Source of the DNA: Verrucomicrobiia bacterium DG1235
Lineage (GTDB): Bacteria; Verrucomicrobiota; Verrucomicrobiia; Opitutales; Opitutaceae
DNA length: 64,000 nucleotides
Direction of reading: 5' to 3'
Assembly: GCA_000155695.1 (NCBI GenBank)
Contig: DS990592.1
Coordinates: 3,023,973 to 3,087,972 of the forward strand
The stretch's first letter is position 1. Each line of letters opens with the position of its first letter. Of this stretch, positions 19,639 to 41,888 are shown one piece after another. A program made the position numbers and the translations under genes. The notes under the pieces were generated by a model, which saw only the letters and a list, made by a program, of their open reading frames with translations, was not told where the DNA came from and made no database searches.

Positions 19639-19693
19639 TTCATAATTCATCCCTCAACCTACATAATTCGACCTCACCATTCACTCTTCACTC
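19639..19693 (+). repeat. Heptanucleotide array leading into mtfA
   Basis: Units in 7-base phase are TTCATAA, TTCATCC, CTCAACC, TACATAA, TTCGAC(C), CTCACCA, TTCACTC and TTCACTC, with one single-base slip. The array runs directly into the presumed mtfA coding start. It contains almost no G. Confidence 0.8.
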
Positions 19694-27019: not shown

Positions 27020-27228
27020 ATTCATAATTCATAATTACCATCCACCACCCCCTCATAAGTCAGAGTCCCCCAATCCCAACTGTCAGAAAGAGAGAACTCG
27101 CCCCCTCACTCTAGCCATCCCACTATTTCCCCACTCCCCCAATTCCCCAATTCACCCCTCACCCCTCACCCCTCACTATCCCGCCTTTCCCCTTTCACCC
27201 CTCAGCCTTCATACTTCATCCTTCAAAA
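27020..27228 (+). repeat. Heptanucleotide arrays between the regulator and the Nramp-like gene
   Basis: Three arrays in 7-base phase: ATTCATA x2 plus ATTACCA (27020-27040, 14 bases after the regulator stop); TTCACCC, CTCACCC x2, CTCACTA (27151-27178); and TTCACCC, CTCAGCC, TTCATAC, TTCATCC, TTCAAAA (27194-27228). The last ends 2 bases before ATG 27231. The rest of the 224-base gap is C-rich and nearly G-free. Confidence 0.85.
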
Positions 27229-28952: not shown

Positions 28953-29014
28953 CAACCCGATCTCTTTGTGTCTTCTTGTGCCTCTTCGTGGCCAAAACCA
29001 ACACAACCCGATCC
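28953..29014 (+). repeat. TTTGTG/TTCGTGG module with ACAACCCGATC linker
   Basis: Roughly 10-base units: TCTTTGTG, TCTTCTTGTG, CCTCTTCGTGG. They are flanked on both sides by the linker CAACCCGATC. The same arrangement occurs at 31041, 34570 and inside dnaE2 at 31931. Confidence 0.75.
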
Positions 29015-30980: not shown

Positions 30981-31225
30981 AGCTCACAGAGCGAAGTCTG
31001 CTCGCGCCACGCCACGAAGCCCCAGAGGTCTTATAAGAACCAACCCCATCTCTTCGTGCCTTTTCGTGGCCAACAAAAATTATTCCAGAAACATCTGTGC
31101 CTATCTGAGCAATCTGTGGGCAACAAAACACAAATCCTCCTCCATATAATTCGAGCAAATTCGTACCATTGCTTCGCCATCTCCGGCAAGCCTCCGTCGT
31201 GGGCCAAAAAAAGCACAACCCACGT
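30981..31225 (+). repeat. Composite repeat spacer between the synthase-like gene and dnaE2
   Basis: Modules in order: AGCTCACAGAGCGAAG (30981, related to copies at 35787 and 55494); TTCGTGCC/TTCGTGG units (31047-31075); CATCTGTG..ATCTGTGGG units (31082-31120); AATTCGAGCAAATTCG units (about 31145); and AAAAAAAGCACAACCC (31205). This non-coding spacer lies between convergent genes. Confidence 0.7.
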
Positions 31226-31235
31226 TCTCCAATCT

Positions 31236-34200
31236 TCAGTGAAAATCATAACTCCCCGAAGCCGGCACATCCCCCGTCACCAAAGCCTCGATACGATCCG
31301 CCTTCACATGCGTCACCCCCTTCGCGCGCTGTAGCACGCCCGAGATAATCAAGAACTTCTCCTGCGTAATTGTCAGCCGACTCTTCTCAAACAGCTTCGG
31401 CACCACGATCACATTCGAAATCCCCGTCTCGTCCTCCAGCGAGATGAAGACAAAGCCCTTCGCCGTGCCCGGCCGCTGACGGCAAATCACCTGCCCCGCC
31501 ACCTTCACCCGACTCCCATTCGACGTCGTATCCAAATCGCAAGCGCGCCTAACCCCGCCCAACTGTCCCCGCAGTGAAGCCATCGGGTGCTTGCCCACCG
31601 TCACGCCCACTCCCGCATAATCCGCCTGCAGCCGTTCCAAATGCGTCATCACCTCCAACGGGCTCAGAGCCTCCTCCTCCTCCACAAACGCGAACAAATC
31701 ATCCTCATCCAGCAAAGTCTCCACCTCCCAAAGCGCCGACCTTCGATCTCCACAAAAACAATTCAACGCCCCGATCGACGCCAGCATCCGCAGCTCCTCC
31801 TTATTAAACCGCGTCCGAAACCGAAAATCCTTCAGCGACCGAAACGCCCCCCGCTCCCGCTCCGCCACCAAAGCCTTCCCCCTCTCCCGCGACAACCCCT
31901 TCACCATCACCAACCCCAAGCGAATCTCTCCAACCCGATCCCCACCCTCACATTTTCGTGCCTTTTCGTGCCTTTTTGTGGCCATCAAATCCCCATCCCC
32001 CCTTCGTGCCTCTTCGTGCCTCTTCGTGGCCATCACCCCCTCAACCCGATCTACTTCATCCTTCATCCCTCCACCTTCAACCTTCTCCCACGCCGCGCCA
32101 GCGGCGCCACACTCCCACCGCGACTCCACCACACACACCGGCAACACCCTGATCCCCATCCGCTTCGCATCCTGAATCAAGGTCGCCGGCGCATAGAACC
32201 CCATCGGCTGATTATTCAAAAGCCCCACAAAGAACTCCGCCGCGTAGTGACACTTCAAATACGTGCTCGCATACGCCAGCAAGCCAAACGAGATCGCATG
32301 GCTCTCCGGAAATCCATAGTGCGCGAAACTCGACACTGCCCGCACCACGTCCTCCACCTTCGTCTCCTCCACCCCACGCTCCCGCATCGCCCCCACCAGT
32401 TTGCCGAGCACCTTGTTCATCCGCTTCTCGTTCGTGCTAAACGTGCTCACCGCCCGCCGCAGCTCCTCCGCCTCCGCCCCCGAAAAATCAGCCATCACCA
32501 TCGCCACCTTCAAGATCTGCTCCTGAAAAAGCGGCACCCCCAGCGTACGCTCCAGCACCTCCTCCAGCCGCGGATCAATATACTCGATCTTGCTCGGATC
32601 CTCCCGCCGCTCCAAATATGGATGCACCATCTTCCCCTGAATCGGCCCCGGCCGAATAATCCCCACCTCCACCACCACATCATAAAACGTCTTCGGCTTC
32701 ATCCGCGGCAGCGTCGCTATCTGCGCCCGACTCTCGATCTGAAACACCCCCACCGTATCCGCCCGCTGCATCATCTCAAAGGTCACCACATCATCCTTAG
32801 GAATCGTCGCCAACTCGATATCCACCCCCTTCGTATTCAAAGTCTCGATCGTATCCTGCATCACCGCCATCATGCCCAGCCCCAGCAAGTCCACCTTCAC
32901 GATCCCCAGATCCTCGCAGTCATTCTTATCCCACTGGCAAACCGACCGCCCGGGCATCGAAGCCGGCTCCAAAGGCACCACCGTATCCAAAGCTCCCTGA
33001 CAAATCACCATCCCCCCCGAATGCTGACCCAAATGCCGTGGCAGTCCCAGCACCTGCTCGCAAAGCTTCGCCAACGCCCTTGCCCGTGGATGCTCCTTCG
33101 TCACGCCCGACTTTTCCAGCTGATCCGCCAACTCCACCCCATGCTCGTAGTTGTGCCCACCAAACAATGACGAAAACCGCCCCAGCACCTCCTCGTCAAA
33201 ACCCAATACCTTCCCGATCTCCCGAGCCGCGCTCTTCCGCCGATACGTGATCACGTTCGCCGTCATCGCCGCCCCGTGCCGCCCATACCGACGATACACC
33301 TCCTGAATCACCATCTCCCGTCGCTCCCCACTCGGCAAATCGATATCGATATCCGGCCAACTCCTTCTCTCCTCATTCAAAAACCGCTCAAACAACAGCC
33401 CCGCCCCCACCGGATCCACCGGCGTGATCTCCAAACAAAAACACACCACGCTATTCGCCGCGCTCCCACGCCCCTGAGCCATGATCCCATTGTCCCGACA
33501 AAAATTAACCAAATCCCAGACGATTAAGAAGTATCCAGAAAATCCCAACTTCGCGATCACCGCCAGCTCATGCTCCATCTGACGCCGCGTCTTCTCGTTC
33601 GGCTCACCCTTAAACCGCTTCCGCGCCCCCGCCCAAACCACCTTCTTCAAAAACGTATCCATCGACTCACCACGCGGCACGCCATAGCTCGGAAATTCGT
33701 AGCCCAAATTCTCCAACCCAAACTCCACCTGCTCCGCAATCCGCAGCGTATTATCCACCGCCTCCGGAATATCCCGAAACAAATGCCGCATCTCCGCAGG
33801 CGCCTTCACGAACCGCTGCCCATTCCGACTCAACAAAGCCCCCGCCCCATCCAGCGACACCTTCTCCCGCAGACACGTAAACACATCCATCAACGCCCGT
33901 CCCGCCGGCCGCGCATAGCTCACCCCATTCGTCGCCACCATAGAAACGCCCTCCGCCTCCGCCAAATCCCGCAATCCCGACACCAACCGCTCCTCCCCCC
34001 GCTCATGCCTCCGCTGCAGCTCCACAAAAACATTCCCCGCACCAAACAGCCCCTTCAATTCCGCCACCCGATCCCGCATTCCATCCCTGTCACCAAGATC
34101 CCAATACCGCCGCAACACCCCATCTTCATCCCCCGTCAAAGCCACCAACCCCTCAGTCCTCCCCACCAAGTCCCCCCAAGCCAAACGCCCCTCCCCCTTC

Positions 34201-34502
34201 GCCGCCGACAAATGCATATCCGTCAAAATCCGACACAAACTCTGATACCCCGCCCTTGTCTTCACCACCACCGGCAACGCCGAGCCATCCACCATCGGCA
34301 GCTCGCAGCCCACGATCCCCTTCACGCCCATCTCGCGACACGCCGCATGAAAGCGGGCCGACCCATAAAAGCCGCCCCGATCACACACCGCCATCGCCGC
34401 CACGCCCCGATCCGCGCACGCCTCCGCCAATTCATCCGGCTGTGACGCCCCCCTCAAAAACGAAAACGCCGACCGCCCATGAAGTTCGACATAACTATCC
34501 AA
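31236..34502 (-). CDS. dnaE2: Error-prone DNA polymerase DnaE2 (ImuC)
   Basis: A 1088-residue alpha-subunit-type polymerase of the mutasome, which copies damaged DNA during SOS mutagenesis. An N-terminal PHP domain (SYVELHGRSAFSFLRGAS) is followed by the polymerase core with catalytic Asp residues in WPDIDIDLPSGERR (near 385) and KVDLLGLGMM (near 538). Then come helix-hairpin-helix and OB domains (VKVAGQVICRQRPGTAKG). The start is TTG 34502, with GGAGGTG six bases upstream. Between SRWEC and IRLGLVMVKGLS (about residues 797-858) a stretch containing MATKRHEEARR and MATKRHEKARK is encoded by dispersed intergenic repeats. It lies downstream of imuA and imuB on the same strand. Confidence 0.95.
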   Translation of the reverse strand: MDSYVELHGRSAFSFLRGASQPDELAEACADRGVAAMAVCDRGGFYGSARFHAACREMGVKGIVGCELPMVDGSALPVVVKTRAGYQSLCRILTDMHLSAAKGEGRLAWGDLVGRTEGLVALTGDEDGVLRRYWDLGDRDGMRDRVAELKGLFGAGNVFVELQRRHERGEERLVSGLRDLAEAEGVSMVATNGVSYARPAGRALMDVFTCLREKVSLDGAGALLSRNGQRFVKAPAEMRHLFRDIPEAVDNTLRIAEQVEFGLENLGYEFPSYGVPRGESMDTFLKKVVWAGARKRFKGEPNEKTRRQMEHELAVIAKLGFSGYFLIVWDLVNFCRDNGIMAQGRGSAANSVVCFCLEITPVDPVGAGLLFERFLNEERRSWPDIDIDLPSGERREMVIQEVYRRYGRHGAAMTANVITYRRKSAAREIGKVLGFDEEVLGRFSSLFGGHNYEHGVELADQLEKSGVTKEHPRARALAKLCEQVLGLPRHLGQHSGGMVICQGALDTVVPLEPASMPGRSVCQWDKNDCEDLGIVKVDLLGLGMMAVMQDTIETLNTKGVDIELATIPKDDVVTFEMMQRADTVGVFQIESRAQIATLPRMKPKTFYDVVVEVGIIRPGPIQGKMVHPYLERREDPSKIEYIDPRLEEVLERTLGVPLFQEQILKVAMVMADFSGAEAEELRRAVSTFSTNEKRMNKVLGKLVGAMRERGVEETKVEDVVRAVSSFAHYGFPESHAISFGLLAYASTYLKCHYAAEFFVGLLNNQPMGFYAPATLIQDAKRMGIRVLPVCVVESRWECGAAGAAWEKVEGGGMKDEVDRVEGVMATKRHEEARRGDGDLMATKRHEKARKCEGGDRVGEIRLGLVMVKGLSRERGKALVAERERGAFRSLKDFRFRTRFNKEELRMLASIGALNCFCGDRRSALWEVETLLDEDDLFAFVEEEEALSPLEVMTHLERLQADYAGVGVTVGKHPMASLRGQLGGVRRACDLDTTSNGSRVKVAGQVICRQRPGTAKGFVFISLEDETGISNVIVVPKLFEKSRLTITQEKFLIISGVLQRAKGVTHVKADRIEALVTGDVPASGSYDFH
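31931..32112 (-). repeat. In-frame repeat insertion inside dnaE2
   Basis: Two copies of the TTCGTGCC/TTCGTGGCC module (31950-31983 and 32001-32031), the ACCCGATC linker (31933 and 32043) and five phased heptamers (TTCATCC x2, CTCCACC, TTCAACC, TTCTCCC; 32055-32089) lie within the coding sequence. Read on the - strand they encode about 60 residues with no stop codon. Confidence 0.85.
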
Positions 34503-34599: not shown

Positions 34600-34773
34600 A
34601 CAAATAATTCCCAAATCCATCTGTGCAAATCCATGTAATCTGTGGGCCCAAAAAAGCACAACCCCGATCTCCATTTCCCAAATCCAATTCGAGCCAATTC
34701 GCGCAATTCGTTGGCAAAAAAGCACAACCCGATCCCCTCATTCACCTCATTCTTCATTCTTCATCCTTCATCC
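34600..34773 (+). repeat. Composite repeat spacer between imuB and dnaE2
   Basis: Modules in + strand order: AATCCATGTAATCTGTGGG; AAAAAAGCACAACCCCGATC (34651); AATTCGCGCAATTCGTTGG; AAAAAAGCACAACCCGATC (34718); then heptamers CTCATTC, TTCATTC, TTCATCC, TTCATCC (34746-34773). The array ends 2 bases short of the imuB TGA stop. Confidence 0.8.
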
Positions 34774-34775
34774 TT

Positions 34776-36347
34776 TCAATACTCCCCCTCCACTCTCCAT
34801 CCCAGCTCGTCCTTACAAATCCGATACACGCCCCCCTTGTTCAGCTCCACGTCCCACTCCACCCGATTCCAGCTCCCCTTCTCCTCCCACCAATGCCCCG
34901 AGTGCAGCCACGGCCCCCGCACCGCCTTCACGAAGCCCGACACCCCCTCGCACTGTATCCAAATCGGCATACGCCCCTGAAACTCCACCGCCGCCTTGCG
35001 TCCCGGCCGATACCGCCGCAGCGGCATCCCAAACATCCGCCCCACATCCAATTCACCCACCGGTGGCACCGACGCAGGCAAGGCCTCCATCCTAAAACCA
35101 TCCGGCCGCTCATCCTCGATCACCACCGGACGCCCCACTCTATCCTCGCCCACGATCCCCGCCACCCGCGACAAAGTCTGCGTAAACCGATACGGATTCT
35201 TCAAGCTACTCTCGAACAGCCCCAGCTGACGCTCCCGAAAATCCGCCACCTCCAGCCTTAGCTCCATCGCCGCCACCGGAGACTCCGCCTCAACCTCCTC
35301 CAACCGCGCTGCCAACAACCCAAACAACGCCCCCGCATCGCTCGTCGGCTCCGGCAACTTCTGCTCCACCACCACCGGCTCCCCATAAGCCAGCCGCAGC
35401 TCCACCCGAGCAAACGCCGCCACCTTATGCCCCGCCCGCATCCGAGCCCCCAGCGTATCCAAAAAACGCCTCAGCAAAAACAACAACGGCTCCACCGAAT
35501 CCACATCGTATTCGAAATCCCACGACTCCACAAACTCCGCCGGCAGCTCCGCCACCGCCACCACCCGCTCCTCGCGACCCGTCACCCTATCCCAAAGCGC
35601 CAAACCCTCCACGCCCAGCCGCGCCCCCACCGCCGACCGCTTCAACCCCGCAAACACCGCCAAACTCCGAATCCCCCACTTCTCCAACACATCCCGCAAC
35701 GCCCCGGACATCTCCACAGCCCCCAAAGCCAAGCCCGCCAAAAAAGCACCCACTTCCACACTTCGAGCGCCGCGAGAACCCTGCGAAGCTCGCAGAGCGA
35801 AGCACGGGCCCACACACAAAACCCTACCCTCAACCGCTCGAGCAGCCAACCCCGCCACGACCCAGCTCTCCGCCACTCCAATTCCCACCGTCAAACCCAT
35901 CGCCGCCAATTCCCCCACGATCTCCCCGCACCGAGCAATCGCCTCCTCTATCTTCGCCCCCCGCAAGTCCACCAGCACTCTACCCGCTCCATCCATCTCC
36001 ACGCGCGGCGAAAGCGAATACGCCATCGCAAAAAGCAATTCCTCCACCATCCGTTCCGCCTGATCCGAACGATGCTTAACCACCAGCCCCTCGCACCGAG
36101 CCAAAGCCTGCGGTATCGAAAGTCCCACTACGACACCCTCCTTCGCCGCCATCTCCGTCATCTCCAACACCACCGGCTTCTTCGCCTCCGCATCCACCAC
36201 CACAACAGCCCCCTCAACCCGATCAAGGTAGGGTTCGGGCGCCGCCTCGGACCTGACACCACGCAATCCCCCAACACCCACCTCATCCAGAGCCATCGAC
36301 AAAACCGCCTGCAACGCCAGACGCGGAACATGTAACACCGCATACAT
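34776..36347 (-). CDS. imuB: ImuB, Y-family-polymerase-like mutasome hub
   Basis: A 523-residue Y-family relative thought to link DnaE2 to the beta clamp. ATG 36347 is preceded by CCGGAGG at 7 bases, so it is preferred to longer forms. The palm region is recognisable (AVVVVDAEAKKPVVLEM, GLTVGIGVAESWVVAGLAA), but the acidic catalytic set of active Y-polymerases is not evident, as usual for ImuB. A beta-clamp-binding motif, QLGLF, lies near residue 375. Two stretches (about 31-48, with YLDRVEG, and about 173-197, with CFALRASQGSRGAR) coincide with dispersed-repeat DNA and look like in-frame insertions. Confidence 0.92.
   Translation of the reverse strand: MYAVLHVPRLALQAVLSMALDEVGVGGLRGVRSEAAPEPYLDRVEGAVVVVDAEAKKPVVLEMTEMAAKEGVVVGLSIPQALARCEGLVVKHRSDQAERMVEELLFAMAYSLSPRVEMDGAGRVLVDLRGAKIEEAIARCGEIVGELAAMGLTVGIGVAESWVVAGLAARAVEGRVLCVGPCFALRASQGSRGARSVEVGAFLAGLALGAVEMSGALRDVLEKWGIRSLAVFAGLKRSAVGARLGVEGLALWDRVTGREERVVAVAELPAEFVESWDFEYDVDSVEPLLFLLRRFLDTLGARMRAGHKVAAFARVELRLAYGEPVVVEQKLPEPTSDAGALFGLLAARLEEVEAESPVAAMELRLEVADFRERQLGLFESSLKNPYRFTQTLSRVAGIVGEDRVGRPVVIEDERPDGFRMEALPASVPPVGELDVGRMFGMPLRRYRPGRKAAVEFQGRMPIWIQCEGVSGFVKAVRGPWLHSGHWWEEKGSWNRVEWDVELNKGGVYRICKDELGWRVEGEY
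35787..35804 (-). repeat. AGCTCGCAGAGCGAAG repeat inside imuB
   Basis: This is near-identical to intergenic copies at 30981 and 55494. Here it encodes part of CFALRASQGS (residues about 180-190 of ImuB). Confidence 0.7.
36205..36255 (-). repeat. REP-like element plus linker inside imuB
   Basis: CTCAACCCGATC (the linker) is followed by AAGGTAGGGTTCGGGC and GCCGCCTCGGACC, resembling the GTAGGG-arm-loop-arm palindromes elsewhere. It encodes about residues 31-48 of ImuB without a frameshift. Confidence 0.55.
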
Positions 36348-36370
36348 CAGTTGCCTCCGGCAAAAAAGCG

Positions 36371-36536
36371 AAGAGTGAAAAGTGAAGGGTGAAAAAAACA
36401 ACCAATCAATCGTACCAAAATATTCATTACTTTCATTTCCTATCTCAATCTTTCGTCATTCATTCCTTAAGAGTAGCCTCGCTCCATCCACTCTTCTCCA
36501 ATTCATTCTTCACCCTTCACCCTTCATCCTTCATCC
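36371..36536. repeat. Oppositely oriented heptamer arrays between imuA and imuB
   Basis: On the + strand GAGTGAA, AAGTGAA, GGGTGAA (36373-36393) lie upstream of imuB. TTCATTC, TTCACCC x2, TTCATCC x2 (36502-36536) abut the imuA stop codon at 36537. On the mRNA the two arrays are complementary (GGGTGAA against TTCACCC), so the intergenic region could form a stem. Confidence 0.75.
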
Positions 36537-37352
36537 TTACCCAACCCTTCTCACCAGCTGCGCAAACCCCTCCCGCTCCCGCGTCCGCTTCCTCAGCACC
36601 TCCACCTCCACGCCCGCCCCGAGCTCGCCCAGCGACGCATCCAAATCCTCAATACAATGCCGCCCCTCCAGCCGCACCCGCACCTGAGCGCTCGGAATCA
36701 TCGCCTCCGGCGTAAACACGCACACATACGCGCTCGACCGCTCTGCCAGCCGCTGCAGCCGGTACCAGTCCGCCGCCTTCACCCGCCGCAGTTCCCTCCC
36801 CTCGCAACCGCGAAGATCCACCAGCACCATCCCTAGATTCTCGTCCCGCAACAGCGCGTCCGCCACCCGCATAGCCTCGCCCGCCGAGCGACACCGCGCC
36901 CACAGCAAATGCTCCAGCAATTCCCCCGAAGCCGACCCCGGATCAAACCCGTCCGCCCCATCCACCAAGGCCGCGAACCGCTGCTCTCGCCGCGTCCCCG
37001 CCAGCAAATGCAAAAGCAGAGCCTGCCCCCCGCAGCTCGCCCCCGACTCAGCGATCTCCGTAAGTAGCCCCGAGCGCAAGCCCCCATCCAGGGCTCCGTC
37101 CAAAGAGTCGACACCAGTCCCTAGAATTTCCGATTCCGCAGGCGCCGCGCGCTCCACACCGAGCTCGCCCAGACGCCCCTCTAGACTGGCCAACTCGCTG
37201 CCTGTACCAGCGCTTGCCATGTCCTCATTCCAAGGCGCCGCAGCCCCCTCGTCAACGCCCCCGCGCCCTTCAAAATTCCCCAAATTTCTAGGCGCCTCAC
37301 CCCCAACAATTTGCCCCTCAAAAAAACTTTCCTCGCCCACTCCAGCCGTCAC
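36537..37352 (-). CDS. imuA: ImuA, RecA-fold mutasome protein
   Basis: A 271-residue RecA/SulA-like protein, first gene of the imuA-imuB-dnaE2 cassette. A variable N-terminal 75 residues is followed by GTGVDSLDGALDGGL and LLTEIAESGASCGGQALLL, the latter at the Walker A position but degenerate. VLVDLRGCEGRELRRVKA and VQVRLEGRHCIED-type strands follow. ImuA modulates the mutasome. The stop codon directly meets a heptamer array. I see no CTG-N10-CAG LexA box in the upstream 150 bases. The start is uncertain: internal ATGs, such as the one in WNEDMASAG, are possible. Confidence 0.82.
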   Translation of the reverse strand: MTAGVGEESFFEGQIVGGEAPRNLGNFEGRGGVDEGAAAPWNEDMASAGTGSELASLEGRLGELGVERAAPAESEILGTGVDSLDGALDGGLRSGLLTEIAESGASCGGQALLLHLLAGTRREQRFAALVDGADGFDPGSASGELLEHLLWARCRSAGEAMRVADALLRDENLGMVLVDLRGCEGRELRRVKAADWYRLQRLAERSSAYVCVFTPEAMIPSAQVRVRLEGRHCIEDLDASLGELGAGVEVEVLRKRTREREGFAQLVRRVG

Positions 37353-38316: not shown

Positions 38317-38545
38317 CCCCCTACAATCTTCATCTACTATCCCCAAAAAAAGATACTCATCCTCTTGCTCCGACTCATCCTCCCTTCTCAGCCCATCAAA
38401 TTCCTCATACGCAAATTCCTGCCCAAGCTCCGCTTGGATCCTGCCCGCGAAGCGGATCAAGCGAGCCCGCGAGCGATGTCATACCTCCCCAAAACTCACT
38501 ACCTTGTGCCGCCATATTGAAAAGCAGGCGCATCACTACTCCCTA

Positions 38546-38620
38546 CTTACTACTCACCACTCACCACTTACTACTCACTACTCACTACTCACTACTCACT
38601 ACTCACCACTCACCACTCAT
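38546..38620 (+). repeat. Ten-unit heptanucleotide array (CTCACYA)n
   Basis: In-phase units from 38546: CTTACTA, CTCACCA x2, CTTACTA, CTCACTA x4, CTCACCA x2, then CTCAT. A run of CCCCCC separates it from ATG 38627. Translated, it gives a spurious N-terminal extension of HYS/LLTTH type. Confidence 0.9.
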
Positions 38621-41644: not shown

Positions 41645-41828
41645 CTAGTTGCGAAAAATATGGAGGAGCGAGCGAAACTGTTATTCGACAAGAAGCCGGA
41701 GAGTCCTAACCATACGATCCAATCAACGGAACAAATGCGCAGCAACCTTGGAAGCCTCGCCCATTCTCCAAGCTCGCCACTTAACCCCCCATCGCCACCA
41801 CTCACCAAAACACGAGCCGATTTTACCA

Positions 41829-41884
41829 CTCACCACTCACTACTCACTACTCACCACTCACTACTCACTACTCACTACTCACCA
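41829..41884 (+). repeat. Eight-unit heptanucleotide array abutting an ATG
   Basis: CTCACCA, CTCACTA x2, CTCACCA, CTCACTA x3, CTCACCA, then CTCA immediately followed by ATG 41889. The start codon sits in the repeat phase, and there is no Shine-Dalgarno sequence. Confidence 0.92.
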
Positions 41885-41888
41885 CTCA

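Follow-up and report, generated by a model that had tools for sequence, protein, structure and literature searches.

The STRR elements of cyanobacteria are intergenic heptamer repeats. Repeats of this kind are described as tandem 7-nt units in spacers (PMC4679880), while other short repeats are known from inside genes. Rickettsia palindromic elements, in-frame repeats of about 150 bp, add a peptide to proteins that go on working (PMC10969869, PMC3733652), and Di Nocera et al. (2013) described GTAG/CGTC REPs inside coding genes, many of them for replication or repair and with DnaE2 named among them, genic REPs being high in the verrucomicrobium O. terrae (PMC3733652). The presence of REPs inside DnaE2 genes is, to that extent, already in print; in the portions of that paper on which we draw, REPs occur in genes of one functional category at different sites, those in recB of two Xanthomonas lying apart (PMC3733652). 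The HUH transposases of the IS200/IS605 and RAYT (TnpA_REP) groups have a single-strand mobility that is tied to the lagging strand (PMC6006769). As to the polymerase itself, a survey of polymerase III alpha subunits found the length of the DnaE2 core to vary, ascribing this mainly to the PHP and thumb domains, and notes that genetic studies call DnaE2 non-essential (PMC3919608).

Of particular relevance to these systems is the dnaE2 gene of Verrucomicrobiia bacterium DG1235 (the home genome, G000, of the same genus as Pelagicoccus mobilis), which lies in the window, the whole stretch of 64,000 nucleotides that was analysed (Table 1). The protein scores 1177.7 bits against the DnaE2 profile NF004225, above the family cut-off of 939, and a comparison of its model with PDB structures gives DnaE polymerases as neighbours (best Z 38.0, rmsd 5.5 over 862 residues). 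The expected imuA-imuB neighbourhood is present: an IMS protein adjoins, and the RecA-like protein, slightly under its Pfam cut-off, is probably ImuA, a name that we presume from position. With the imuB-like and RecA-like genes upstream of dnaE2, an imuA-imuB-dnaE2 operon is therefore very probable. The dN/dS of dnaE2 is 0.05-0.15 (21 pairs of genus genomes, 1034 shared codons, with dS close to saturation in comparisons with G001), and dnaE2 is therefore a working gene. The frame is unbroken in all eight genus genomes, home included, which together with the dN/dS rules out a misassembly or a pseudogene. The wider suspicion of an artefact, which would also take in an ancient DnaE2 segment lost elsewhere, found no supporting point; with open frames in 8/8 genomes, purifying selection and inserts that are dissimilar to one another (see below), it is vanishingly improbable.

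Table 1. Features of the dnaE2 locus and of two further module-bearing genes (window positions unless a locus is given)
Feature	Position	Strand	Remark
dnaE2 (error-prone DNA polymerase)	31236..34502	-	open frame, 1088 aa; NF004225 profile
imuB-like gene	34776..36401	-	IMS and IMS_C, both above cut-off
RecA-like gene	36537..37352	-	RecA 26.2 bits, slightly below cut-off 27
dnaE2 insert, residues about 804-858, ~55 residues	31929..32093	-	lengthens beta-hairpin turn of HhH domain; alignment gap after 804, before 859
ACCCGATC linker	31933..31940	+	within dnaE2 insert
TTCGTG module 1, three units	31955..31981	+	within dnaE2 insert
TTCGTG module 2, three units	32003..32029	+	within dnaE2 insert
ACCCGATC linker	32044..32051	+	second copy in dnaE2 insert
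Four clear heptamers, plus a fragment	32056..32083	+	frame in use without stop
Intergenic TTCGTG module past dnaE2 3' end	31053..31069	+	motif scan
Linker and heptamers, imuB-dnaE2 spacer	34726..34774	+	motif scan
Heptamers, spacer upstream of imuB	36503..36537	+	motif scan
CusA-type RND gene, TTCGTG module in frame	L177:6093-9638	-	home genome
Hydantoinase A/B gene, TTCGTG module in frame	L170:4767-8642	+	home genome

The original prediction, that intergenic repeat modules are inserted in frame inside dnaE2, is borne out by the spacers of the window, where the same parts recur: AACCCGATC at 28954, 29005, 34726 and 36216, and heptamers at 27152, 34747 and 36503, with one further heptamer array, at 19681, overlapping a low-scoring ORF. 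Heptamers occupy both spacers of the imuA-imuB-dnaE2 operon. Judged against 20 second-order Markov shuffles of the window, the two-unit module and arrays of at least four heptamers, each found three times on the + strand and never on the - strand, have an expectation of 0.0, and AACCCGATC is found six times on + and never on - (0.95 and 0.15 expected). Taken singly, the words TTCGTGG and ACCCGATC give a weak signal, TTCGTGG occurring 14 times on the - strand with 13.1 expected. Searched against the home genome, the insert DNA has at least 19 other matches among the best 40 of 68 candidates, which were scored, and a strict three-unit module pattern only two.

The composition of the insert that had been proposed stands as to modules, ACCCGATC and heptamers, and MATKRHEEARR and MATKRHEKARK are read from the repeat as stated; the five heptamers become four and a fragment, and the span, real as an insert, moves from residues 797-858 to bounds set by the alignment gap and the pLDDT. 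A 7-nt period exceeds chance (lag-7 identity 0.66, p 0.003, codon shuffles), and a search for a short palindrome in the insert gave a longest perfect stem of 6 (p 0.197). The home insert is in this respect unlike the GTAG/CGTC REPs (PMC3733652). Like the Rickettsia palindromic elements it is an in-frame insertion in a working gene, but it differs from them in not being palindromic (a judgement from palindromy rather than from the element sequences) in its short parts (modules, linkers and heptamers) and in the phylum of its host. The tandem 7-nt units resemble those described from spacers (PMC4679880), except that here they also run in frame through dnaE2 and avoid stops in the frame used. The TTCGTG module and linker have no stop codon in any frame; the heptamers within dnaE2 keep one frame open, and six perfect copies would close all frames. 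Two long heptamer arrays elsewhere in the window, at 38533-38619 and 41828-41888 (12.4 and 8.7 copies), have a unit sequence that differs from that of the dnaE2 heptamers.

The HHH_6 match of the home protein covers residues 783-922, 140 residues against 89 profile positions. In an AlphaFold2 model (46 sequences; mean pLDDT 84.8) residues 803-856, between hairpin strands 799-801 and 859-861, are the sole stretch below pLDDT 50, and the insert is accordingly predicted to be a disordered loop, the point on which a structure check had been suggested. An alignment of 86 DnaE2 proteins (91 rows less five dropped as incomplete or duplicate) has at least 10 extra residues at this site in 18, more than at any other internal site. 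Length also varies elsewhere in DnaE2 (11, 11, about 10, 8, 5, 5 and 5 of the 86), and the hairpin is therefore the leading variable site of DnaE2, not the sole one. Two other sites of variable length, near home residues 137 and 940 (L030, L032, L036, L039, L047, L055, L056, L057 and L071), look by eye inherited rather than repeat-borne, in one group of genomes.

We gathered 135 DnaE2 genes, mostly from Verrucomicrobiota and Acidobacteriota, of which 131 were measurable and 130 distinct. Known DnaE2 proteins were said to pass almost directly between the anchors, and without an insert they indeed do, the distance being 42 or 43 residues for most of the 131 genes. At least 10 extra residues are present in 35 of the 130 distinct genes, and at least 20 in 25. 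Sample (a), 145 Verrucomicrobiota genomes, gave 13 DnaE2-like matches at E <=5e-28 (one at 4e-20 was excluded as unclear), three of which, G000 included, have an insert of at least 10 residues. For sample (b), 119 Acidobacteriota genomes, 47 of the matches listed, with at least 46% identity, were fetched; four unread, the seed genome and one duplicate were excluded, and among the matches listed 15 of the resulting 41 DnaE2 have at least 10 extra residues and 8 at least 20. The remaining genes were taken as the 80 that best match the home protein, and are no random sample. As a control, none of 109 DnaE1-like matches in sample (a) has a net gain of 10 residues or more, the largest gain being 9.

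Compared with each other by BLASTN, the 35 inserts gave 10 hits, and by our count they form about 28 dissimilar groups, a dissimilarity that rules out one inherited segment for most of them. The inserts of L209 and L220 have some residues in common and may form one more pair; those of L199, L221 and L222 (Acidobacteriota) are alike and may, from their sequence, go back to one inherited segment. Under codon shuffles, 15 of the 35 have either a long palindrome or a 7-nt period at p<0.02, where one or two would be expected; the other 20 have neither at that level, and not all of these are traced to repeats. Outside the genus, origin from repeats of the same genome was tested for two inserts: that of L087 has 36 other matches in its own genome and similar ones in two further genomes, and the palindrome of the L064 insert is present on 10 other contigs of its own genome. 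Perfect stems reach 29 bp in the insert of L229 and 25 bp in that of L064, and these resemble small paired-REP elements. As dispersed repeats in genes, the inserts of L087 and L064, and those of G006 and G002 in the genus, are like the GTAG/CGTC REPs; the difference is that one DnaE2 site recurs here across phyla, and different sites there (PMC3733652).

That inserts recur in DnaE2 and not in the DnaE1-like matches, and that a DNA-binding domain is the one hit, could mean that the loop is useful, its inserts being selected because they tune DnaE2 in its mutation rate or in its contact with DNA or ImuB; a mutator idea of this sort is in print as a speculation of Di Nocera et al. (2013; PMC3733652). 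We regard this as unlikely, since the inserts are dissimilar in sequence, range from 10 to about 80 residues and are predicted to be disordered, and 95 of the 130 DnaE2 were counted without one. The alternative that we prefer, a tolerant hairpin loop, draws further on the genus.

Among seven other genomes of the genus, the site is filled by a long insert of different composition in four and by a short one in two, and is empty in one. The residues between the anchors of this comparison number 36 in the insert-free relative/outgroup DnaE2 of G004 and K14, 49 in G005, 51 in G001, 80 in G007, 83 in G003, 90 in G000, 93 in G006 and 118 in G002 (the DnaE2 proteins of G003 and G007 are identical to those of P. 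mobilis KCTC 13126 and Pelagicoccus sp. SDUM812005, respectively). By reading, a GTAG-like hairpin is accompanied by a linker and by TTCGTG units in the inserts of G007 and G003, and the inserts of G006 and G002 combine heptamers with REP-like hairpins. Matches to the G006 insert stretch number 17 in G006 itself, its own copy counted, at least 40 each in G002 and G003, 29 in G007, 19 in G004 and 7 in G000; searches of G001 and G005 gave none. The G006 and G002 inserts are dispersed REP families, found in many places in five genus genomes. In the proposed alignment with related DnaE2, then, relatives have other residues from other DNA, or nothing; neither the same residues encoded by non-repeat DNA nor an insert conserved across DnaE2, the outcomes that would have told against the original prediction, was found. 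In the tree G000 branches within the insert-bearing group (some nodes are weak, 0.52 to 0.95), and the content of its insert was therefore replaced. In the PHP domain, near residue 101, G002, G003, G006, G007 and G001 (L010, L011, L012, L013, L014) have a second insert, which G000, G005 and G004 lack; REP matches land in this insert in G002, G003 and G007.

In the home genome the repeats sit on the C-rich strand of each genome half. The C-rich strand would by the common rule be the lagging one; rRNA genes, searched for to place the leading strand, gave no match. GC skew reverses near 0.85 and 3.8 Mb, the switch points being set by hand from the skew, with two loci near 0.837 Mb close to one of them. 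A loose module pattern has 66 hits, two of them on another contig. Members of the module family, defined by bases 7-10 from the sequence alone, agree in orientation with the replichore in 37 of 37 cases, at 22 of 22 loci, while the remaining 27 loose-pattern hits include 21 that agree and six that do not. Agreement extends to the REP matches in G000 (7/7), to the other matches to the home-insert stretch (19/19, in partial overlap with the 22 module loci) and to heptamers in the fetched stretches (5/5). Modules in these stretches lie 11 times on + at negative skew, 12 times on - at positive skew and twice on - at a skew of -0.02; ACCCGATCC lies five times on + at negative skew and eight times on - at positive skew, with none against (two stretches overlap). 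At 4.60 Mb in G000 (L156), a 12-kb stretch has a GC skew opposite to its surroundings and its one ACCCGATCC copy is likewise turned, perhaps by a recent inversion.

Base composition is an unlikely cause of this orientation, because the module, which has T and no A, lies on the strand richer in A (by reading, AT skew is 0.06 to 0.20 in 20 of the 21 stretches whose GC skew is below about -0.08; the exception is a 12-kb stretch at 0.831 Mb with skew -0.02). Gene direction is rejected: of the ATG ORFs of at least 350 aa in the window and 39 stretches, the C-rich strand has 106 and the G-rich strand 69. The split of 175 to 33 from a dicodon gene finder was set aside, the program having been trained on the same strand-biased genes and having scored dnaE2 low. 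A mobility tied to the lagging strand, as in IS200/IS605 and RAYT elements, would yield a fixed orientation (PMC6006769), but no transposase could be tied to the TTCGTG module. G000 has two Y1_Tnp genes; by eye no REP was recognised in their flanks, part of one of which is N, and no link to the TTCGTG modules was visible there.

A home-made gene finder places 19 of 26 module loci in spacers, four unclearly at or near predicted starts, and three in genes, namely dnaE2, the CusA-type RND gene and the hydantoinase A/B gene. In the CusA-type protein, residues 527-653 are without partner where CusA has 46 residues, and the module stretch of the hydantoinase is 14 residues longer than N-methylhydantoinase. 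That one dnaE2 site is struck by different kinds of repeat in two phyla, and that two inserts contain palindromes (25 and 29 bp), might suggest a transposase or recombination system aiming at a DNA motif there; with the repeats mostly in spacers, 3/26 module loci inside genes and no common mover known for heptamers, modules and REPs, this is very unlikely. The thought that an error-prone polymerase carrying the repeats may reveal how they move fared badly, as the modules in two other genes and the replichore orientation point to a spread process not tied to DnaE2; we have no evidence that DnaE2 moves the repeats. A mutasome that leaves a mark on its own locus, by writing repeats through template switching while it fills gaps, would account for repeats both within dnaE2 and in the flanking spacers and for the second REP-coded DnaE2 loop of relatives. 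Repeat-bearing spacers are nevertheless spread over the whole chromosome, and outside dnaE2 the modules struck genes for a transporter and a hydantoinase, which leaves such writing highly improbable.

The best explanation, and one that we think probable, combines a tolerant DnaE2 hairpin loop with strand-specific spread of repeats and with fast turnover. The turn of the hairpin in the HhH domain would accept extra residues with function kept, the loop being presumably neutral. Short intergenic repeats would spread in the home genome in one orientation relative to replication and would occasionally arrive in the turn, perhaps via single-stranded DNA at the fork; for palindromic REPs the mover may be a HUH transposase of the RAYT type. 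In-frame arrivals would survive, decay and be replaced, so that every species would come to have its own repeats in the loop. Rather than a one-off accident, the home insert is one case of a DnaE2 loop that repeatedly harbours wandering repeats. A more speculative extension, which we hold to be decidedly unlikely, is that one replication-strand-specific copying process spreads REPs, TTCGTG modules and heptamers alike, with the hairpin, filled independently in two phyla, as its natural recorder and with mutasome gap filling perhaps helping to write the repeats.

In the openly licensed literature, the supplementary table of REP-bearing genes aside, we found no account of one site that recurs across phyla or of its turnover, and none of the polarity or of non-palindromic modules, and the portions of Di Nocera et al. 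(2013) drawn on here do not take up replichore orientation of genic REPs (PMC3733652). The repeat-coded residues of DnaE2 are no conserved domain, which is a warning to be heeded, and the strict polarity of non-palindromic repeats calls for a mover not known. A remark in the literature on REPs in DnaE2 genes becomes a testable pattern of one hairpin turn with dissimilar, species-specific inserts, and the DnaE2 hairpin a place to count the arrivals of intergenic repeats.
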